Shown here in pieces: positions 5,581 through 23,450 of a stretch of DNA of 24,602 nucleotides; the stretch's first letter is position 1, and each line of letters opens with the position of its first letter. The DNA lies in IMG/VR virus record IMGVR_UViG_3300027985_000550, positions 1 through 24,602 of that record; one strand, written 5' to 3'. Made by a program: the position numbers and the translations under genes. The notes under the pieces are model-generated. The model searched no databases. It saw nothing but the letters and a program-made list of their open reading frames with translations, and had not been told where the DNA came from. This DNA comes from a virus.

Positions 5581-6509
5581 TATGTTATTGCTTTATAGTT
5601 ATTATTCGTAATTAATTTAGCTGCACCGCTGTTATCAATTAGCTTACGTGCAAACCTTACTGTTATGTATTCTGTTTTTATTTCACTATCAGTTCCCCCC
5701 GCCTCATTGAACACTTGCAGCCTTACAGTGAATATACCCGGCTTAGTATAAGTGTGAATAGGGTTCTGTTCTGCACTAGTGTTGCCATCGCCAAAGTCCC
5801 AGCTCCATATTTTTACCCTCCCTTCGCTTAGGTCGGTAAATTGGACAGTATGCGGTTTAATTCCAATCCCTGTATTATCTGACGTGAATTGAGCGGTTAA
5901 CGAATCTATTACCGACATATCCTTATCAATATCAACAACTATATCGGCATATCGGGGCTCGCTATATACATGATAATAATACTTAGAATTACTTACAAAT
6001 TCCCAAGTGCCGTCGCCCCAGAATATCTTAGCCGTTCTACCTTTATCGTAGTAAATACGTACATTCCCTGCCAAATCTGTTGTTTCAATGAATTTTAATC
6101 CATTAGGGTTTACATCACACAACCCTAACGAGAATCGGTATATACTATCCTTCTTCCGAATATTAACACTAGGCACAATATTGCGTGACCGCTTACACAA
6201 TAAGCATTCCCTTACATCTCCTTCTATATCTCGCAACGACAACACGAATAACTTCTTCTCAAACATATAATCGGTTAATGCTTTAGCTAACCTATATGCA
6301 GCTACTTCATTTATTGCCTTAGTGAAGCATTCTACAACAAATTCAAGAGGCTCATATCTGTTATTCCCTAAGTTTTTATCAATCCCCGATTTTACAGGCC
6401 ATATATATTCATCTTCTCGCTCCGATGCTATTCCAAGCATTGCTGTATAATCAAGTATTCGTATGCCGAATTGCTCCTCTATATCCATATTATCAATGAG
6501 TACTTGCAT
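5580..6509 (-). CDS. Distal tail (Dit-like) protein with PKD domains
   Basis: 309 aa. The N-terminal 140 residues begin MQVLIDNMDIEEQFGIRILD and read like the distal-tail ring protein that follows the tape measure in siphophages. The C-terminal half carries Ig-like domains. A degenerate unit with FWGDGTWE at 163-170 and YYYHVYS at 177-183 is followed by a canonical PKD domain at about 208-284 with WDFGDG at 237-242 and HTYTKPGIFTVRL at 252-264. PKD domains are common on Bacteroidetes surface and secreted proteins and bind protein or glycan. The gene starts with a TAATG overlap with the tape-measure stop. The PKD call is very secure; the Dit role rests on position and general resemblance. Confidence 0.75.
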   Translation of the reverse strand: MQVLIDNMDIEEQFGIRILDYTAMLGIASEREDEYIWPVKSGIDKNLGNNRYEPLEFVVECFTKAINEVAAYRLAKALTDYMFEKKLFVLSLRDIEGDVRECLLCKRSRNIVPSVNIRKKDSIYRFSLGLCDVNPNGLKFIETTDLAGNVRIYYDKGRTAKIFWGDGTWEFVSNSKYYYHVYSEPRYADIVVDIDKDMSVIDSLTAQFTSDNTGIGIKPHTVQFTDLSEGRVKIWSWDFGDGNTSAEQNPIHTYTKPGIFTVRLQVFNEAGGTDSEIKTEYITVRFARKLIDNSGAAKLITNNNYKAIT

Positions 6510-9500
6510 TATATCCCTCCCAATTTCTGATATGTCTTCTTTGTGTTTTCCGCTATCTCGGGTAAGTAATCGGTATTGCGTTTTATCTGACCCAACACTA
6601 TAAGGCTATTGGTTGCCAGCTCTAATGCATCAGCCGAATAGCTTGCTATCCTTTCATTGCTTAGCCTTGTTGCATTTATCCCTCCAACAATTTCGGTCCC
6701 GGTAGCCTCTGTTATCGATTCCGAAACCTTGCCCGCATTGCTTCTTTCAGCGGCACTTTCCGAACCGTCGAACGCATTATTGAATCCTGCCTTCGCTGCT
6801 ATCTCATCGGCTTTACTATAAGCTTCCAATACAGCAGGCTGAATAGTGTTTAAGTCCTTGTAAAAATCACCAAGCTCTAATACTATACTCTCCTGAAGAG
6901 TATCGAGCGAAATATTGCCTGCGGTATAGTCTTTACCTATATTCTGTGCTGCTGATTGTAACTCATCGGTAAGGGGCTTTATAAACGCAAAGTCAATAGC
7001 TTGTTGCGAAAAGCTTTCTATCATATCTGTCATACTCTGCTCTAGCCCTGCAAAAGCATCTGAACCGTTTTCATATATATCTCGAAATGCTTTCGATGCT
7101 TCCGATGCTACATCGCCAAATACACTTGCCATATATTCGCCCATGGCCTCGTATGCCTCCTCAATAGCATATGAGGCTTCTAAAGCCCCCTTAAGTATAT
7201 TCTCTTCATTGCCTCCAAGTATTCCCGAATCCAATACGCTCTCTGCTACTACTGTATTCAACTTCCCTTGCTCGTTAATTAACTGCGGGAATAATTCCAG
7301 CAAGTCTTTATATTCATCCTTACGCCAGCGTCTGTCTTTTGTTTTTACCTCTACCCCATTGAGTGCTGTCATATACTTATTGAGTTGAGCTGTTGCCGCT
7401 TTTATACTCTCTGCCGACCCCTCAAACCCCTCTCCGAATTCAAACTTCCCAAAGCTGGTATCATATTTCTTCTGAATCCTGCTCAGGTCTCGGTAGAACG
7501 CTTCTGTCTTCTCAATTATTGATACATATGCCTCATTGAAGTTTCGTTCTATCTCCTCGTTAGCTTCTTTTGTTTTTTTCACAAAACTCGACACTATCTG
7601 TATCAACGGCAGCAATACCCCAACAAGCGCACCTACTATTAGCCCCAGTTTTCCCCCTATTTGCTTCGCTATTTTGAACCCTTCGGTTATGCCGGCAAAC
7701 AACTTATTGAATGTATCTAATATATCGGTTACGTATGTTGCTATTACCTCAAGTACCTCGCTACCTGTTGCTTCACTTAATGCAATCAATGTTTCTGCAA
7801 CCTCTTCTGCTATTGTAACTATTGTCTGCAATGCTGCCGTAACACCTCCTGCACCTTCTTCAACTCCTGCTACGGTATCGGAACTTGCCATTTGCTGAAA
7901 ACTGCTTATAAGGCTACTGAATCCTGTATCGGTGTCTTGTATACTTGTTGTTAATCCTTCTACAGATTTGCGTATCATATCAACCGTTTCTGGAGAAAAC
8001 GAATCTACCTTATCTTGCGATAAGCCAAACATATTGTTATCCCTAAACTTTGTCTTACCGTCAATGTAATCAAGAATATCTACCGCACCGTTTTTAAGTT
8101 CTTGTAATTCTTCAAGCGACTTATTCTTAGTATCGGTAAATAGCTTATTAATCCCCTGGGTCGATGTTGCATAAGCACTATTCAGTTCGTCAAGTTGCTT
8201 ATTTAATTCTTCAATAATATTCCCTTTTACTTTATCCCCTACATTGTTTTTTTCGGCAACTTTAAGTTTTGTGTTTGCTTTATCTATCAAAGCCTTCCTT
8301 TTGGTTAAATAATCACCATACTGATTCAACAACTCATCAAGTTTCTCCTTGTTTATCTGTTCCTCTTCTTCTTTCTGTTTTTCTGCCTCAACAGCAGTAT
8401 CTAATGTTACAGTTTTTATCTCTTGCTTAATTATTTCCTTCTTCCCTAAATCGTTCTCTTTATTTAACTCCTTATTTAAAAATTCAATATATGTATTCCC
8501 TTGCTCTGTAAGAAACTTGTACAGCTCATCAACTTTCGTCTTACGCTCTTCTGTTACCGAACTTACATCACTATTGTATTTTTCATAAAGCGATTTTTGG
8601 TCGCTCAAATACTGTTCGTATGCTTTTAGTTGTTCTTTATATTTATCTGCAAGTTCTTTCTTTTCCTCTTCCGATAATTCTCCCTCAACTCCCTCTCTAA
8701 ACTCAAAATAAAATGGAGACTTCTCAATTTTGAATTTATCTTGCCCGGTGCTCTGTTTCAGGAATGCATTTGTAAAGTCTTCTATCTCCTGTTTACTTGC
8801 CTTGAATTCCTTCCAAGCTTCGTCAGATGCCTGTATCGACTGCAATAAATAATCAAAATCTGTTAGTGCGTGCTTGCTTCCGGGTTGCGTTGCATACGAA
8901 CCATAACTTATTGCAATACCCATCTCTTTTGCATATTTCTTCGCAAGGTCTAATATATTTGACCCTCCTTTTTCAATATCTTCATTTATCTTCTGAAAGT
9001 ATGCAGTAAGCGTTCCTTTATCTATTCTGTCAATATTAAGCAATTTATTAATTGCCTTGCCCTGCGCTTTGTATAACGATTCTCCTATCTCGTCTATCTT
9101 CTCTTGCTTTGAACGTAACGCAATGTTTTCAATTATCTTTTGGTTAACTGCATTTTGCGCAATTTCAATTTCTTTAAGGCTCGCTTTCTCTAAATCGTAA
9201 TTCCCAATTAAGTCGGGATATTTATCATTAAGCTGCTTAATTAATCGGTTTCTCTCATCGGTCTCCGGGTTCGTCTTTTTAAGAGCATCAAAAATACCAT
9301 TAATTTCAAATTGCTCTTTCTTAATCTCAGCATTAAGTTTAACCGTTTCTCTATTCAACTCCTTCTGCTTATCAACGAATTTCATGATTAAAGGAACGGC
9401 AACGCTTAAGGCTGTAACAACCAATCCAAGTGGGTTAGCTACAGCTGCCGCCCTAAGCGACTTTAATCCGTTACTTAGCTTATAGCTTGCTGCAGCAAGT

Positions 9501-11083
9501 CCGTTTTTAGCTATTGCAGCACTCTTGTCTGCTGCCGCCGATATATTTGTTTGTATTGTGTTAAGCTTTTGTTCTGCAGTATTTAGTTTTGTTTTTGTGG
9601 TTGAAATTATTGTTTGTGCCGCTTTCTTCTTTGATATTTCTACGCTCAGTTTATCTTCAAGATTCAATACTCTTTGCTGCACAGCACGGGCTTTTGTCAA
9701 GTCTCTGTTTGCTATTGCTTGCGATAGCTCACGCTTCGATGCTGCTATTTTTGCATTAATTGTAGCAATATTCCCTTTTGATGTTTGCGCCTCTAATATT
9801 GCTGCCGTTTGTACGGCTTTAAGTCTTGCAATCTCTACGTTTAGCGCAGTTGCATTCTCTACAGTCTTCTGCTTAATTAACCCAATCTGTTCAGTTGTTA
9901 GCCTGTTTATGTTCGTAATACCCATAGCTTGCCTTTCCTGTTCCGGAATAAGCTTTGCAAGTTGCTGTGCTTCTGCCTGTGAAGCATCGTTACCTCTCGA
10001 CAGCTTTAGTTTATTAACTATTGCCAGTTGCGCCTTGTAAACCCCCAATGCGGCTGCAACTGAAAGTATTACCTCTTTGTTATCAAGTAAAAATTTAAGA
10101 GCTTCTTTTGCTCCAATTTCAATTTCTTTAAATGGATTCCCTTCCCCCAATAGCGAAGATATTGATTGCTGTATCTCCTTGTTTATGTCAAGTAACCGTT
10201 GCTCTTGCTCTTGTGTCTTTGTTAATTCCTTGTTTGTTTCCGCAAAACCCTCTTCAAGTGAGCCCAGCATTTTTAAAAATTCAATACCTGCATCTTCGCC
10301 TGCACCCCCAAATATATCGGCAATAGCGGTGCCTACCTGCGCACTTGTTGCAGGCAATTCTGCCAGCTTATCTGCTACTTGCTGTATCACCTCGAATGTA
10401 GTTGTAGTTCCTGCACGTAAGCCTGCTTCAATCTCCTTAGAAGACAACCCTATCCCATCAATTGCTTTTGCCGTCGATTCAGTCATCTCCCTCAACCTGA
10501 TATTGCCTTCCTTAATAGTGTCAATACCTTTGTCGGAGAATATACCAGCATCTACTTGCGCTGTCATTAATGCTCTTGCTTCCTTAGCACTTAATCCTGC
10601 TTCTTTAAGTAATGGTGAGTATTCCCTCAGTTGGTCAAGAAATTCGCCACTCCCATCTGCCCCCTCAATAAACCCTCGCTGCACCTCTGACAATGCTTCG
10701 GCGAAGCCTATATTCATACCCTTTGCGAAATTCGATGAAGCTAAAGCTACCTCCTCAACGCTTTTCCCGAAAGTGTTTGCTGTTGCTATTACATCTGCGG
10801 TAAAAGTATCAAGTTCAGCCCCTTGAAGTTTAGTTAACTTTGATATTTCATCTCTGTATTTTGCCGTATCTTTCCCTAGCTCAACTAATTGAGCTCCAAC
10901 TAAACTTATACCTCCAAGAGCTGCTATATTCTTAATAGCATTACCTATTCCTTTAAAGTCTGAATTTATCTTATCTGCCTGTGTGCCAACACCTGCCGTA
11001 AAATCGTTAAGCTGACTGTTCATTCGGCGAAGGTCTGTTTCAAACCCTTTATCTATTCCGCTTGAAAAATATAACCCTTTCAT
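6509..11083 (-). CDS. Tail tape measure protein
   Basis: 1524 aa, the longest gene here. Residues about 55-285 are a TP901-type tape measure core (ELGKDTAKYRDEISKLTKLQ, FGKSVEEVALASSNFAKG, IADIFGGAGEDAG). The rest is mostly long Lys/Glu/Gln/Ala-rich helix and predicted coiled coil. Two hydrophobic stretches are visible, at about 549-570 (ANPLGLVVTALSVAVPLI) and 1145-1170 (LGLIVGALVGVLLPLIQIV), of the type thought to insert in the host inner membrane during DNA ejection. At about 0.15 nm per residue the length implies a tail tube of roughly 230 nm. No lysozyme, NlpC/P60 or peptidase motif is evident. It begins at an ATGA overlap with the tail chaperone frame and precedes the distal tail gene, the canonical siphophage order. 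Confidence 0.95.
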   Translation of the reverse strand: MKGLYFSSGIDKGFETDLRRMNSQLNDFTAGVGTQADKINSDFKGIGNAIKNIAALGGISLVGAQLVELGKDTAKYRDEISKLTKLQGAELDTFTADVIATANTFGKSVEEVALASSNFAKGMNIGFAEALSEVQRGFIEGADGSGEFLDQLREYSPLLKEAGLSAKEARALMTAQVDAGIFSDKGIDTIKEGNIRLREMTESTAKAIDGIGLSSKEIEAGLRAGTTTTFEVIQQVADKLAELPATSAQVGTAIADIFGGAGEDAGIEFLKMLGSLEEGFAETNKELTKTQEQEQRLLDINKEIQQSISSLLGEGNPFKEIEIGAKEALKFLLDNKEVILSVAAALGVYKAQLAIVNKLKLSRGNDASQAEAQQLAKLIPEQERQAMGITNINRLTTEQIGLIKQKTVENATALNVEIARLKAVQTAAILEAQTSKGNIATINAKIAASKRELSQAIANRDLTKARAVQQRVLNLEDKLSVEISKKKAAQTIISTTKTKLNTAEQKLNTIQTNISAAADKSAAIAKNGLAAASYKLSNGLKSLRAAAVANPLGLVVTALSVAVPLIMKFVDKQKELNRETVKLNAEIKKEQFEINGIFDALKKTNPETDERNRLIKQLNDKYPDLIGNYDLEKASLKEIEIAQNAVNQKIIENIALRSKQEKIDEIGESLYKAQGKAINKLLNIDRIDKGTLTAYFQKINEDIEKGGSNILDLAKKYAKEMGIAISYGSYATQPGSKHALTDFDYLLQSIQASDEAWKEFKASKQEIEDFTNAFLKQSTGQDKFKIEKSPFYFEFREGVEGELSEEEKKELADKYKEQLKAYEQYLSDQKSLYEKYNSDVSSVTEERKTKVDELYKFLTEQGNTYIEFLNKELNKENDLGKKEIIKQEIKTVTLDTAVEAEKQKEEEEQINKEKLDELLNQYGDYLTKRKALIDKANTKLKVAEKNNVGDKVKGNIIEELNKQLDELNSAYATSTQGINKLFTDTKNKSLEELQELKNGAVDILDYIDGKTKFRDNNMFGLSQDKVDSFSPETVDMIRKSVEGLTTSIQDTDTGFSSLISSFQQMASSDTVAGVEEGAGGVTAALQTIVTIAEEVAETLIALSEATGSEVLEVIATYVTDILDTFNKLFAGITEGFKIAKQIGGKLGLIVGALVGVLLPLIQIVSSFVKKTKEANEEIERNFNEAYVSIIEKTEAFYRDLSRIQKKYDTSFGKFEFGEGFEGSAESIKAATAQLNKYMTALNGVEVKTKDRRWRKDEYKDLLELFPQLINEQGKLNTVVAESVLDSGILGGNEENILKGALEASYAIEEAYEAMGEYMASVFGDVASEASKAFRDIYENGSDAFAGLEQSMTDMIESFSQQAIDFAFIKPLTDELQSAAQNIGKDYTAGNISLDTLQESIVLELGDFYKDLNTIQPAVLEAYSKADEIAAKAGFNNAFDGSESAAERSNAGKVSESITEATGTEIVGGINATRLSNERIASYSADALELATNSLIVLGQIKRNTDYLPEIAENTKKTYQKLGGI

Positions 11084-11298
11084 ACTTTTTTAATTAATTT
11101 TCGCTCGCTGTCGGTCAGTTCCGATATTTTAGTACCAAACCCTTTCGGCGGCACATCACTTTTATTATTCTTACTCTTATCGTCATAATCAATACTTGGT
11201 GCAGTAAGCGAGCCTATTACATATTGTATGTAAGGCATATTCAATATCTGATTGGGCGACATTCCTGTTTTCTCTTGATAGGCAAACATATTGCCCAT
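11080..11298 (-). CDS. Tail assembly chaperone, downstream (T-like) frame
   Basis: As a separate gene it starts at the ATG at 11296-11298, sharing a base with the stop of the upstream chaperone (TAATG), and gives 72 aa. The frame is open further upstream, to 11376, where it overlaps the upstream gene; a TTG at 11350-11352 would also give 90 aa. The protein reads MGNMFAYQEKTGMSPNQIL, then NMPYIQYVIGSLTAPSIDYD, the compact helical pattern of the domain that binds the tape measure in lambda gpGT-type proteins. The tail (KSKNNKSDVPPKGFG) is charged and probably disordered. It is probably made mainly as the C-terminal part of a frameshift fusion with the upstream gene. A strong AAAGGAGG upstream also permits independent initiation, so both products are possible. 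Confidence 0.7.
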   Translation of the reverse strand: MGNMFAYQEKTGMSPNQILNMPYIQYVIGSLTAPSIDYDDKSKNNKSDVPPKGFGTKISELTDSERKLIKKV

Positions 11299-11741
11299 TA
11301 AGTTCTTTCCTCCTTTAATAGTGTATTGTCTATCCTTAGTATCAGGGTCCAATAGTTCAAAAAAAAAGCAGGATCGTCAAGCTTATGAATCGTCAAAAAT
11401 AAATTCCACAAATGGTAATGTCCGCACTTTTGCAGCTTCCGAATTAATAACTTCTCATAAAGCCTGTGCCCAAAACGAGAGTTCGCCAAAGCTATTGCAC
11501 AATACTCATTAATAAGTGGTATAATTTTGTCCTGCAATTCAGGGTCACTAAAATCATCAAGCATTGCAGGGTTATTATTCTTAATAAGCCGCAATTGCTT
11601 CTTAATCTTACAGAGTTTGATATGTGTCCCGGTAGTAATATATTTAAGGTAAAAGGGGAAAACCCCTAATACCCTAAATCCTTTCAATCGCTTCCGTTCG
11701 TTTGTCACTATGTCCGCTATCTCAAGTGCCAGTTCGCTCAT
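11298..11741 (-). CDS. Tail assembly chaperone, upstream (G-like) frame
   Basis: 147 aa, mostly helical and basic (MSELALEIADIVTNERKRLK, then LCKIKKQLRLIKNN). It lies exactly between the tail tube gene and the tape measure, where siphophages encode a G-like chaperone whose minor -1 frameshift product coats the tape measure during tail assembly. At codons 125-128 the mRNA reads GCU UUU UUU UUG, and an overlapping -1 frame continues to 11080. The ordinary product ends KEERT at 11298. The start overlaps the tube gene stop (TAATG at 11739-11743). The sequence itself does not match a family I know well; the assignment rests on position, size, overlap architecture and the slippery run. Confidence 0.75.
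   Translation of the reverse strand: MSELALEIADIVTNERKRLKGFRVLGVFPFYLKYITTGTHIKLCKIKKQLRLIKNNNPAMLDDFSDPELQDKIIPLINEYCAIALANSRFGHRLYEKLLIRKLQKCGHYHLWNLFLTIHKLDDPAFFLNYWTLILRIDNTLLKEERT
11309..11316 (-). promoter_or_regulatory. Unusually strong Shine-Dalgarno sequence before the ATG at 11296-11298
   Basis: The coding strand reads AAAGGAGG, ten bases before the ATG of the downstream chaperone frame. Almost all other starts in this window have no such sequence, as usual in Bacteroidetes. It could drive separate translation of the 72-aa product. It also encodes Lys-Gly-Gly in the fusion frame, so a coincidence of coding is possible. Confidence 0.4.
11358..11369 (-). other. Probable -1 programmed ribosomal frameshift site in tail chaperone gene
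   Basis: On the coding strand the run reads GCTTTTTTTTTG, nine T in a row, in the zero frame GCT TTT TTT TTG. T TTT TTT is a legitimate slippery heptamer: both tRNA-Phe can re-pair one base back. After slipping, the -1 frame reads F-E-L-L-D-P and continues to the stop at 11080-11082, giving a fusion of about 220 aa (127 residues from the upstream gene plus 93). The -1 frame is closed only 12 bases upstream by a TGA at 11377-11379, so the slip must occur between 11376 and 11298, which contains this run. I did not find a clear downstream pseudoknot by eye. Confidence 0.7.
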
Positions 11742-12499
11742 TATGCCTCTGTTACTGTTACTGTCCAGTTCTGTGTTGTACCGTCAGCGGCTTCAACTGC
11801 AAATACCACAGGTTGGCTGAAATCTATCTCATCACTGCCACATGGGGTTGCATAAGCTCCTATCGAACACTTAATGTAGGGGCTTAACTTCGTAATGTCT
11901 GTTCCCGCCTCAACCTCAATTGAAACAGTATGCAATGTTGTATTAATTGATGCTGCCCCGGTTTGTTCATCTAGTACAAAGCCTTTAATGTCGTTAGCCG
12001 ACTTGTCGAAGCCTTCGTATGAACCTATTGCATTTACTCCCTCTTTCTCAGGCTTCAATGCCGTGCCATTTACTTGTATATATGCCAAGTCCTCGTCCGA
12101 TGTTGCCAAGTATGCATTTAACGCAACGTTTACAGCATAAGTAATCGACATATTCTTATGAATAATCATAACCGACTTCCTTATCCCCTGAACCTGATTA
12201 TCCTTCTTCCACTCTGTTACCTCAGCACTTACTTCAACATCGCCACCCATAAACAGAGCTTTATTTACTGCTGAAATATCAGCCACCTGCATATTAAGTG
12301 AGTAATCGCCGGCCACAACACTCTCTTCGAGTACTTCTCCGTTTACATTCTTGTAGGAGGTTGTACTAGGGTCAGAACCTTCAAGTTTCGAAGTCCCTTC
12401 TCGAACACTACCGTCAATCTTTCGCCAGTTAGTACCTAACCCGCCATCGGGTGCAACATCAGATATTAATATCTTCTTATGTCCAATATCTACCTTCAT
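11741..12499 (-). CDS. Major tail tube protein with C-terminal Ig-like (DUF5018-like) domain
   Basis: 252 aa. The first 165 residues look like a siphophage tail tube subunit (MKVDIGHKKILISDVAPDGG, ADISAVNKALFMGGDVEV, KSVMIIHKNMSITYAVNVAL), and the gene lies between the tail terminator and the chaperones, the usual place. Residues about 172-250 form a separate domain: FVLDEQTGAASINTTLHTVS, then VEAGTDITKLSPYIKCSIGA, ending in AVEAADGTTQNWTVTVTEA. This matches the pattern of a Bacteroidetes surface domain (DUF5018-like, with the closing ADGTxQ.(W/Y)TVTVT phrase). By analogy with the Ig-like domain on lambda gpV, it should project from the outer face of every tube ring. It starts with an ATGA overlap with the terminator gene. 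Confidence 0.8.
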   Translation of the reverse strand: MKVDIGHKKILISDVAPDGGLGTNWRKIDGSVREGTSKLEGSDPSTTSYKNVNGEVLEESVVAGDYSLNMQVADISAVNKALFMGGDVEVSAEVTEWKKDNQVQGIRKSVMIIHKNMSITYAVNVALNAYLATSDEDLAYIQVNGTALKPEKEGVNAIGSYEGFDKSANDIKGFVLDEQTGAASINTTLHTVSIEVEAGTDITKLSPYIKCSIGAYATPCGSDEIDFSQPVVFAVEAADGTTQNWTVTVTEA

Positions 12500-16481: not shown

Positions 16482-16540
16482 AAAAAAAAAAAATATTCAA
16501 CAAAAAGGTTGCTGTGGAATAACAGCAATCTCTTTTTTTC
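16482..16540. terminator. Candidate bidirectional intrinsic terminator
   Basis: TTGCTGT at 16509-16515 and ACAGCAA at 16522-16528 form a perfect 7-bp stem with a 6-base loop. On the plus strand it is followed by a T7 run (16533-16539). On the minus strand it is followed by T5 and then by T12 (A12 at 16482-16493 on the plus strand). It lies downstream of the head morphogenesis gene and upstream of the scaffold gene for minus-strand transcription, so it could end or attenuate the packaging transcript before the head cluster. The stem is short and only moderately GC-rich. Confidence 0.5.
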
Positions 16541-16553: not shown

Positions 16554-16781
16554 ATGGAAACAGTATTCGACTATAATATAACAGAAGAAGAAAGAGATAT
16601 TATTGGTGTAGTATACAATAAGCTAGACTACCTAAAAGAAATAGGGGAAGATACTTCTTATATGCATATCGCATATTTACATTGGCATAGGAAAAATGTA
16701 AAAATGGCTGATTTTTTTGCAAATAAAATTAAAAACAACCTTCGAAGATTTGATTGCCTCAGAACGATTCACCACGAATAA
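16554..16781 (+). CDS. Small 75-aa protein, only plus-strand gene (moron-like)
   Basis: The sequence starts METVFDYNITEEERDIIGVV and continues with YMHIAYLHWHRKNVKMADFF. The second part resembles a single TPR-like helix-turn-helix pair, the first a short acidic helix. There is no signal peptide or membrane segment. The family is not recognised. It is oriented against all other genes, has its own candidate promoter and a hairpin just upstream, and its last 23 bp overlap the 3' end of the head morphogenesis gene tail to tail. This is the layout of a moron, a separately expressed accessory gene that in other prophages often acts during lysogeny (for example superinfection exclusion), but there is no direct evidence of that here. 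Confidence 0.65.
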   Translation: METVFDYNITEEERDIIGVVYNKLDYLKEIGEDTSYMHIAYLHWHRKNVKMADFFANKIKNNLRRFDCLRTIHHE

Positions 16782-18648
16782 CTTTCCCAACAAGTACTTT
16801 ATATTCTTCTTCTGAAAAGGAAAGTCCTTTACTAAGCAGCAAAGCTCTGCTGATATTTGGTCTTTTATATTCTATATATTTAACCAGCTCATTTTCTATT
16901 TTCTCATAAGGCGTAGTCAGTATCAAATCTTTAAAGTGATTAAATACTTGTTTTTGGGATAGATTTAGTTTTTCAATCAAGTAATTAAGGTTATTAACGT
17001 TTGTCCCGTAACCTAGTCCTCTAGTCATTATCTCGTTCTTATGCCGTGATTCTGCACCAAGTTGCTTTAGTAAATGCTCATAAGTCATTCTTGCACAAAA
17101 TTGATTAACCGTCTCCATCGCTACAGTTCTTCCAGGATATGCTATGTCCTTATCTATGAATCTTTGATGATGGCTATACCAACCTTTTGCACTTGCATGT
17201 CTTATTTCGTGCCACAAGCTTTCTATCGCATACTCTTGTTTAAATGTAAGCGGTCTGTAATCCTTAATTGCCGTAAGCGCATCTCGTAATTCAACTGCGG
17301 GATTAAACCCATCAAAATCATGACTTGATATGTATATTGTACTTTCCTTTTTAATGTACCTCCCGTTGTTAGCATCATACGAATCAAAATTTCCATGCCC
17401 CATATAGAAATCCGTGCGCTTCGAAATAGACACCCCCTTAAACCCATAAGGGAAATAATCAGGGTTATTTTTAGCTATTAACGCAATAGTCTCTTTAACT
17501 TGCCTTTCGCCTATATCTTCAAACTCTCTTAAATACCCTATTATGTTTTTTGAATCACCGTTATAATACCTTTCAAAAATCCCTGTATTATGCTCAAATA
17601 TTGAGTATTTATTATTGTCTCTTAAAAAATAAGGTAGCGTTTTTGCTTGTTTTATGCGCTCTTCGTTTTCTTGCATCCATATATTGAACTTCTTAGGCAT
17701 ATTAACCACTCTCTGCGAGCTCCGACTTAGTGGTGCTTTTCCTTCAATAATTTCTTTAACATCGGTTGCCAATTCTTCGGGGGTTTTAAGTATCGTTTTA
17801 GTGTAGCACCTGCATTTGGGGTGCCACCCCGAAAACTTAAAATCCTTCGGGTACTTACCCTCTAACCTGTCGCATATATCGGTAAACGCCTTTCCGTTAA
17901 CTGTGTGGTTATTCGACAATACAATTTCAATTCCAACCACAAAATCGAACTGTTGGCTACGTTCATAGTCTGCGTGTCGGTATGCCATATTAGTTTCAGT
18001 CCCTGCAAGCCTCATAGCATTTTTATAACTACTTCGGTACACACCCCGACCCGGGTGGTAAGCTTTTGCCCTCGAACTCAAATGCAAGTTGCCATGCTTA
18101 TCGCGAACTCTTCGAAACAACTCATCGGGATTATTAAGATACCTCTTCAACTCTGAACTAAGTTCCGAAGCCGATTTTCCTTCTCCTAACCCAATATCAA
18201 GCCCCATTTCAATTTCTTCCTTAAATGAATTGGTATAATTCCAGATTCTGTCCGATAGGTTTAGTCCGTTTTCCTTGCGCAACTTGAATGCATCTCTAGC
18301 ATCGTGATTATTCTTATAGTACTTGCGCTTCAATTCTGACGTAAGCTTATCTATATTATCCCCGAACACACGGTTAGCCAGTTCACTATTCTTACTATTG
18401 GCTAATGTCCATTCCGAATCTATCCCGTTAATTATTACACTGTGAATCCCTGAATATAGCCATTTTATTAAGTCTTCAACTTGCTTATTTACACTGGGGT
18501 AATCCGAGAAATAAAAAGGCTTATCCTTGTTAAACACAGAAACACGCTTACCTAACAATGCCGACTGCTTAACCGCCTCATTATATATAGCCTGAATCCG
18601 CCTCTCGTATTCCGCTATCCTCTTTAAATGTTCACTTTCGTAATTCAA
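16759..18648 (-). CDS. Head morphogenesis protein (Mu F/SPP1 gp7-like) with C-terminal HEXXH domain
   Basis: 629 aa, about twice the usual length for a minor head protein. Residues about 150-285 match the Mu gpF/SPP1 gp7 domain: RLAGTETNMAYRHADYERSQ at 213-232, DICDRLEGKYP at 257-267 and the closing HPKCRCYT at 276-... to about 283, a Cys/His pattern typical of this family. These proteins enter the head with the portal. The remaining 340 residues are an added region. It contains SLWHEIRHASAKG at 477-489, an HEXXH motif (H480, E481, H484), and a possible third ligand E512 in AMETVNQF, suggesting a zincin-type metallopeptidase. The gene starts with an ATGA overlap with the 64-aa gene, and its 3' end overlaps the plus-strand gene by 23 bp. 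The gpF part is secure; the peptidase role is inferred. Confidence 0.85.
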   Translation of the reverse strand: MNYESEHLKRIAEYERRIQAIYNEAVKQSALLGKRVSVFNKDKPFYFSDYPSVNKQVEDLIKWLYSGIHSVIINGIDSEWTLANSKNSELANRVFGDNIDKLTSELKRKYYKNNHDARDAFKLRKENGLNLSDRIWNYTNSFKEEIEMGLDIGLGEGKSASELSSELKRYLNNPDELFRRVRDKHGNLHLSSRAKAYHPGRGVYRSSYKNAMRLAGTETNMAYRHADYERSQQFDFVVGIEIVLSNNHTVNGKAFTDICDRLEGKYPKDFKFSGWHPKCRCYTKTILKTPEELATDVKEIIEGKAPLSRSSQRVVNMPKKFNIWMQENEERIKQAKTLPYFLRDNNKYSIFEHNTGIFERYYNGDSKNIIGYLREFEDIGERQVKETIALIAKNNPDYFPYGFKGVSISKRTDFYMGHGNFDSYDANNGRYIKKESTIYISSHDFDGFNPAVELRDALTAIKDYRPLTFKQEYAIESLWHEIRHASAKGWYSHHQRFIDKDIAYPGRTVAMETVNQFCARMTYEHLLKQLGAESRHKNEIMTRGLGYGTNVNNLNYLIEKLNLSQKQVFNHFKDLILTTPYEKIENELVKYIEYKRPNISRALLLSKGLSFSEEEYKVLVGKVIRGESF

Positions 18649-22431: not shown

Positions 22432-22439
22432 CAAAATTA
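22432..22439 (-). promoter_or_regulatory. Candidate Bacteroidetes-type -7 box (TAATTTTG) before the packaging operon
   Basis: The minus strand reads TAATTTTG across the end of the radical SAM gene, an exact TAnnTTTG match. It would start a transcript around 22425, just upstream of the ATG at 22404. No clear TTTG -33 box is seen about 20 bases upstream, and the motif is short enough to occur by chance. Confidence 0.3.
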
Positions 22440-23450
22440 GTATTTACTTAATAATTGCCTAACCATTCCCTTATCTTTTGTTGCCTGTTCCATCATATTT
22501 TCAAGGCTTTTCCCCTTAAATACATTCCAAGAAGATGATGTTTGCGATACTGCTTTCATGCACATAGCAGAACCTACCTCTTTTGCACTTTCCGGTGCTT
22601 TGAAGTTTTCCTTATCGTAAACGAAGTGATTCAGGTTATATGTGTTAGGTGTGAATCCTTCCAGCCCATCTATTCCACAGCAACATAAATCATCGCCCAT
22701 ATTTCTCAATCGATTTTCTGCTGCATAAAATTTTAAGCCGTGTGCATGGCATTCGTGCTTTATCTCTTCGAACACCCTTTGAAGCTTTTTAACCGGATAT
22801 ACCCAATCTCCTCCAACTTTTACAAGTCCCGGCTTTTTCTTTTTATGCTTAATCCCCTCGATTGTTATTCCGTGTACTCCTATTTCCTTGTACAGAGGAA
22901 TTGCCTTTAACAGATACTCTGTTACCTCCATAACGAAAGGCTGAACCCTCACAACAACTCTCTTTACCTTTGGGGCAATCTTGCGGATAATTTCTATCCG
23001 TTCTGAGTAAGTTGGTGCTCCGGATTCTAACCTATCATATTTATGGCTTACTAACGAGAATTGCATTACAACATTACACTTCTCTAGCAAGGAGAGATAT
23101 GGCTCTTTTGCTACTAATGCTCCCTTTGTCGATATTACTACCGGATATTGAGTTTTAGCAAATACTTTTAATGCTTCTAAGCTTAATTTGTATTTTTCTT
23201 CAATTGGCTGAAAAGGGTCTGATACTCCTCCCCAGTGAATAGGAATATTCCAATCGCACCAATTTGTTGTTTGGTCTCTATGCCCCTGAATGAATTTTAA
23301 TAGTGATGCAGGACCTTCTCCTTTTTCAATGTGCGCTATGTTGTATTTAAGCTGCACAAAACAGTATGAACATAAATGACTACAACCTTTGTATGTGTCG
23401 AACCTAATAGGTAGGTCGCATATTGTTATTTGGCTTCCGCATTTAGGCAT
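22437..23450 (-). CDS. Radical SAM enzyme, spore photoproduct lyase-like
   Basis: 337 aa. The [4Fe-4S]-binding motif is CSHLCSYC at 23-30 (C23, C27, C30), the canonical CX3CX2C. HWGGVSDPFQPIE at 72-84 and VVISTKGAL at 104-112 are the phrases expected of spore photoproduct lyase-like (SplB/COG1533) proteins. The C-terminal part has an extra Cys cluster, LCCCG at 255-259, and C297 in AMCM, so a second cluster or redox pair is possible. Spore photoproduct lyases repair thymine dimers, but phage relatives can act on other nucleic-acid substrates. The gene overlaps the ParB-like gene by 8 bp, so the two are translationally coupled. The radical SAM identity is certain; the substrate is unknown. Confidence 0.88.
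   Translation of the reverse strand: MPKCGSQITICDLPIRFDTYKGCSHLCSYCFVQLKYNIAHIEKGEGPASLLKFIQGHRDQTTNWCDWNIPIHWGGVSDPFQPIEEKYKLSLEALKVFAKTQYPVVISTKGALVAKEPYLSLLEKCNVVMQFSLVSHKYDRLESGAPTYSERIEIIRKIAPKVKRVVVRVQPFVMEVTEYLLKAIPLYKEIGVHGITIEGIKHKKKKPGLVKVGGDWVYPVKKLQRVFEEIKHECHAHGLKFYAAENRLRNMGDDLCCCGIDGLEGFTPNTYNLNHFVYDKENFKAPESAKEVGSAMCMKAVSQTSSSWNVFKGKSLENMMEQATKDKGMVRQLLSKY

Follow-up and report, generated by a model that had tools for sequence, protein, structure and literature searches.

In the viral DNA analysed here (IMG/VR record IMGVR_UViG_3300027985_000550, positions 1 to 24,602; the window hereafter, 24,602 nucleotides in all), two reading frames, G and T, overlap just ahead of a tape measure gene, and a run of nine Ts (T9) lies inside the overlap. 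The locus raises the question of whether the two frames are joined into one protein at the run, and of whether the ribosome or the RNA polymerase is the machine that slips. The shift from G to GT is a textbook example of dose control by recoding.

Layout of the G and T frames in the window

The features of the locus, all on the minus strand, were the following.

6509-11083, minus strand: tail tape measure protein gene, directly downstream of G/T (PF10145 above cut-off and PHROG tape measure matches)
11080-11376, minus strand: T frame, -1 relative to G, the 93 C-terminal residues of the GT fusion (weak homology to the T domains of relatives)
11296-11298, minus strand: T-frame ATG that shares bases with the G stop (TAATG), a possible separate T start (from the sequence)
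11298-11741, minus strand: G frame, tail assembly chaperone-like protein of 147 aa (relatives have matching ORFs in this position)
11300-11298, minus strand: TAA stop of G
11308-11313, minus strand: GGA GGA, coding for Gly-Gly of the T-frame linker (several relatives have a Gly-rich linker in this position)
11358-11364, minus strand: second in-phase heptamer, T.TTT.TTG, identical to that of phage P2 E+E' (from the sequence and the P2 record)
11359-11367, minus strand: T9 run, the slip site, whose first T is the wobble base of GCT (same-phase T9 in 29 other loci)
11361-11367, minus strand: first in-phase heptamer, T.TTT.TTT (from the sequence)
11741-12499, minus strand: putative major tail (tube) protein gene, directly upstream of G (placed by gene order)

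The initial annotation had described G and a -1 frame T, and recomputation returned the same coordinates and phase. The two minus-strand frames, G at 11741-11298 and T at 11376-11080, share 79 nt; the T frame is bounded by TGA at 11379-11377 and ends with the stop at 11082-11080. The product of a -1 slip was computed as a fusion of 220 aa with a T part of 93 residues, in agreement with the earlier estimate of about 220 aa (127+93), and its junction peptide is predicted to be ...DDPAFFFELLDPDTK. Tail tube and tape measure genes had also been named as neighbours. The tape measure gene is borne out by PF10145, while the tube gene is placed by gene order only: its product had a single PHROG match, of unknown function, and a DUF5018-like C-terminal part below the Pfam cut-off. 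For window G and T, neither Pfam nor PHROG (E<=0.1) gave a match. Elsewhere in the window, 16759-18648 encodes a head-morphogenesis-like ORF of 629 aa (no Pfam match); its C-terminal part contains the motif HEIRH and may be a peptidase-like domain. In addition, a radical-SAM-like protein with the cysteine motif CSHLCSYC, below the Pfam cut-off, is encoded at 22437-23450, at the packaging end of the phage genome.

The coding strand at 11369-11358 reads GCT TTT TTT TTG in slip phase, and the T TTT TTT heptamer noted before was present in the overlap at 11367-11361. The canonical -1 signal, an X.XXY.YYZ heptamer in phase, is thus offered by both T.TTT.TTT and T.TTT.TTG. The run is also a homopolymer of at least nine in coding sequence that joins two frames, which is the pattern of transcriptional slippage. 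It is the longest homopolymer inside any window gene, and the sole longer run, A12 at 16482-16493, is intergenic. When the codons of G were shuffled, T9 arose in 2.0% of the shuffles, a -1 frame open for at least 75 nt at the end in 5.5%, and such an open end containing a run of at least seven Ts in 0.3%. Because of the rates of 2% for T9 and 0.3% for the open end with its run, the window alone is suggestive but short of decisive.

Slip sites and open frames in relatives

No relatives were found with window G or the tape measure protein among viral contigs, or with G among phage records. A capsid protein search recovered relatives where chaperone queries did not; by these searches, the window chaperone is too divergent for relatives to be detected directly. 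All capsid-found relatives in genome bins were labelled Bacteroidales, and a genome scan with tight alignment gave five Bacteroidales loci. The first useful relative, L002 (capsid 42% identical), carried GCT TTT TTT TTC at this junction, with the phase seen in the window. Profile A7, a T-domain query, searches patterns downstream of the junction, so its sample of 80 loci (60 distinct) was not chosen by slip site. Profile A6, whose pattern includes the slip site, added 10 distinct loci, giving 70 distinct in total. Other coding sequence from 30 related loci (234 kb) served as control coding DNA. Against the family profile (A10), window T scored E 6e-6 together with L066 and E 1.4e-3 alone, and its tree branch was very long; the homology of window T to the T of relatives appears moderate at best.

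Conservation of both frames and of the T run in related phages had been proposed as a check, which was run and passed: T.TTT.TT(T/C) lay in phase at the G/T junction in 80/80 A7 loci (60 distinct). By run, the 60 distinct loci comprised 42 with T6+C, 16 with T9, one with T7 and one with T8. Three points of the initial annotation were revised. It had set the pure U-run against commoner mixed heptamers, whereas a T-only site is usual in the relatives and no oddity, and P2 E+E' has T.TTT.TTG. The run need not be T9 either: the form in most relatives is T6+C, followed by a stem that is missing from the window. The shift, moreover, may come from the ribosome or from the RNA polymerase.

Among 30 G/T pairs with a -1 overlap, T9 was found in 12, T.TTT.TTC in 8, A.AAT.TTT in 5, and A.AAT.TTC and C.CCT.TTT in one each, with no canonical heptamer in 3; the chance expectation per overlap for any heptamer was 0.12-0.33. 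The sites A.AAT.TTT, A.AAT.TTC or C.CCT.TTT occupy the junction in more distant relatives. No run of nine or more Ts occurred in the 234 kb of control coding DNA. In 10/70 distinct loci (A7 and A6) the T-frame stop directly abuts the run, and the shift must therefore occur at the run. Past the run, the G and T frames were open and conserved in 68/68 T6/T9 loci, and the third frame was closed within 15 codons in all 68. Since the junction slip site, the openness of G and T and the closure of the third frame hold across the sample, chance and sequencing error were set aside.

An assembly or replication error in the homopolymer would mean that G and T are really one gene or a broken gene. Homopolymers are error-prone, and G and T share one frame in L008, L052, L055, L057 and L076, but exactly T9 recurs in the same phase in 30 loci, Bacteroidales genome bins included, and the T6+C relatives have the same two frames, so that such an error is highly improbable.

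The T before two Phe codons was kept in 30/30 T9 loci despite its wobble position (p 5e-12 from codon usage, uncorrected for kinship). As this T was kept throughout, though the second heptamer needs no such T, the whole T9 run appears to be under selection. This conservation of the full run fits both a ribosomal and a polymerase reading.

Several loci departed from the common layout. The single open frame of G and T was located at L008:4878-5705, L052:13714-14454, L055:9061-9765, L057:15766-16512 and L076:3649-4371. Four loci considered as long-T-frame exceptions (L119, L127, L137 and L142), together with L121, which had been reported without G, proved to keep the same G frame and slip site. 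At L007:13881, L012:14053 and L095 (about 13967), G.GAT.TTT was found in place of a canonical heptamer, a stem follows after 4-5 nt, and the two frames overlap in -1 as elsewhere; given the stem and the overlap without a heptamer, slippage of a single codon is probable there.

The T frame of the window could also be entered from its own start. A Shine-Dalgarno-like AAAGGAGG, absent from the initial annotation, lies at 11316-11309 ahead of the ATG at 11298-11296. G and T would then be two ordinary genes, coupled through TAATG and AAAGGAGG, and the -1 open stretch and T9 would be chance or relics. The spacing of 10 nt between AAAGGAGG and the ATG suits such a start, and the ATG begins near the conserved part of T. 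However, an in-frame ATG near the G stop was found in 11/72 loci, the window included, and a Shine-Dalgarno-like sequence accompanied it only in the window. Moreover, such a sequence is missing from most window genes, several relatives have Gly-Gly at the same linker place without any start, and relatives conserve the T frame already ahead of the G stop. AAAGGAGG probably represents the Gly-Gly linker codons. A Shine-Dalgarno start for T, seen in the window only among the 72 loci, was thus judged unlikely, and the two-gene arrangement as a whole is improbable; a minor contribution of AAAGGAGG and the ATG to T expression is possible. Fusion of G and T by slippage at T9, whichever machine slips, is very probable.

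Downstream stem and length of the run

In the A7 sample, all 42 distinct T6+C sites were followed by a stem, typically of 8-13 bp, that starts 4-8 nt past the heptamer and closes about 50 nt later. The stem arms vary among phages (CCACUUUC, CCACUUCC, CCGCUUCC, CCGUUUCC, CUGCUUUC, CCAUUUCC), and the partner arms change accordingly. Because the 3' arm is misplaced when MAFFT aligns the whole downstream region, covariation was assessed by swapping arms and in a subset without gaps. The native arm was the best of six in 37/42 loci, and 0/2000 permutations paired as well. In 21 ungapped sequences, 91% of cells paired and five pairs had changed on both sides, while sliding the partner abolished pairing. 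No Rfam element was found at the scanned loci. A stem of different sequence also began 4-5 nt past most of the sites other than T runs (A.AAT.TTT, A.AAT.TTC and the group with G.GAT.TTT).

The T9 sites differed in this respect. Within the same A7 sample, stem scores lay at 17-22 where the run was T6 (42 loci) and at 9.8-16.6 where it was T9 (16 loci), against a null from shuffled DNA with a median of 11 and a 95% value of 16. The 30 T9 sites tested, window included, scored below the T6 sites and near shuffled DNA, and the T9 alignment gave no consensus structure; some T9 loci kept a short stem remnant at the same place. A canonical -1 signal usually, though not always, includes a stimulatory stem or pseudoknot downstream. 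In the window, a search confined to stems found no stimulatory one, with a score of 10 against the null median of 11, and the fold z was -2.2 over 102 nt and -0.6 over 130 nt. Scores of 17-22 were also reached by eight T6 loci whose GC is under about 0.44, which rules out base composition as the cause of the score gap. What is new here, from the sequences compared, is a covarying stem at T6+C sites that is missing at T9 sites.

The association of run and stem had exceptions in L021 (T6+C, no stem) and in L175 (T8, weak stem, score 15.8); L086 has T7 after AAA and no stem at the usual place. On the best tree there were eight changes of run type, of which only two were forced by strong branches, and an independent-pairs test was too small for significance. 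Kinship could therefore account for part of the association. The T run and the stem look like alternatives, and lengthening the run may be another means of setting the chaperone dose. The same junction, occurring either as a short run with a stem or as a long stemless run in near-complete association, offers a matched natural comparison. It bears on whether a homopolymer can replace an RNA stimulator, and on whether the slipping machine changed while the protein output stayed the same.

The slipping machine and known systems

Layout, phase, conservation and the lack of a stem are read directly from the sequences. From these we infer slippage itself, its level, the ribosome as its agent, and its function. 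In the proposed mechanism, G and T would form one tail assembly chaperone in two forms. Most translation would end at the G stop and give the short form, and a minority would shift -1 on T9 to give the 220-aa G-T fusion. The ribosome would slip on T.TTT.TTT.TTG, two heptamers in tandem, whose additional Phe codon would compensate for the lack of the downstream stem used by the T6 relatives. By analogy with lambda, both forms, at a set ratio, would load the tape measure protein with tail-tube subunits.

The T6+C family was taken as ribosomal shifters, since its run is below the usual length for transcriptional slippage and its stem covaries; ribosomal slippage is the best reading of that combination. 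At T9, the ribosome was placed ahead of the polymerase because the slip phase is kept and the other sites of the relatives look ribosomal. The T9 run keeps the T6+C phase and contains the P2 heptamer. Evidence against this reading is that the window has no stimulatory stem and that its G and T match no named family. Ribosomal -1 slippage on T9 as the commonest route to the fusion is favoured with modest confidence.

Alternatively, the RNA polymerase would add a U at T9 in some transcripts, thereby bringing G and T into one frame, and the T9 phages would have switched from a ribosomal slip with a stem to a polymerase slip without one. At a length of nine, transcriptional slippage turns effective in many bacteria, and slippage-prone runs commonly begin there (PMC1088944; PMC3711429 gives Tn with n>8). 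Run lengths cluster at six and nine, with single loci of seven and eight between them, and T9 loci lack the stem, whereas the sole T7 locus of the A7 sample, L156, retains it. The opening T of the run is retained even though the second heptamer could do without it. On the other hand, all T9 runs stand in the exact ribosomal slip phase, which a polymerase would not need (ancestry or dual coding could fix the phase), and L086 lacks a stem at the usual place with only T7. We know of no case of T9 slippage by a Bacteroidales RNA polymerase, and the literature searched linked tail assembly chaperones with transcriptional slippage nowhere beyond general reviews and tools. Polymerase slippage is a serious candidate at rather less than even chances. 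Its wider form, in which Bacteroidales tailed phages would have two interchangeable shift forms, a ribosomal U6C with a covarying stem and a stemless U9 read through RNA-polymerase slippage, with the window as an example of the second, is put forward tentatively. If true, and as far as the literature searched shows, the window would hold the first case of a tail-chaperone fusion that is set during transcription.

Both solutions are known from dnaX, where ribosomal slippage with a hairpin in E. coli and transcriptional slippage on A9 in Thermus give the same output (PMC1088944, PMC3711429). As in the T6+C and T9 phages, a short slip site with a hairpin stands beside a nine-base run; dnaX differs in being a cellular gene with an A run, whose shift yields a shorter product. 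In Shigella mxiE (PMC1088944), slippage at a run of Ts (Tn, n>8, PMC3711429) likewise merges a pair of overlapping frames, and a longer protein results. There, transcriptional slippage was shown, and the protein is unrelated. The phage P2 E/E+E' site, T.TTT.TTG, equals the second heptamer of the window, and it also shifts by -1 just upstream of the tape measure gene. The P2 run has six Ts against nine in the window, and the likeness is one of site and place.

The initial annotation had assigned the pair to the lambda G/GT arrangement. The likeness in layout and mechanism stood: as in lambda, the pair lies between the major tail protein and tape measure genes, with a short upstream frame, a -1 overlap and a slip near the end of G (PMC5009743). 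Chaperones of the lambda type are produced as G and GT at a constant ratio, attach to the tape measure and the tail tube, and stay out of the virion. The lambda G end has G.GGA.AAG in phase where the window has a T run, and similarity between window T and lambda T was not found (hhalign E 0.29). One of eight homologues touched phrog_1613, 'tail assembly chaperone', at E 0.1, and a PDB fold search with a poor model of window G (pLDDT 59.5) gave no significant hit. Tail assembly chaperones of the lambda G/GT type diverge strongly, and the missing homology therefore lowers the case for membership and not that for a similar way of working. By its layout and shift, the window pair appears to work like G/GT, whereas the searches found no sequence link by descent to lambda T or to named chaperone families. 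A practical rule for annotating this group of Bacteroidales phages is to check the ORF preceding the tape measure gene for a terminal T.TTT.TTC or T9.

A tRNA-like gene precedes the chaperone gene at L110:2467-2539, L112:2456-2530, L109:2419-2494 and in about 28 further relatives, and none was found in the window. It mostly has a CAT anticodon and resembles an initiator tRNA, and in most cases it lies 7-45 nt ahead of the likely G start. In L113, L128, L134, L142, L156 and L172 the anticodon is no longer CAT, yet the gene still sits in the same position, a hint that it may serve in structure or processing.
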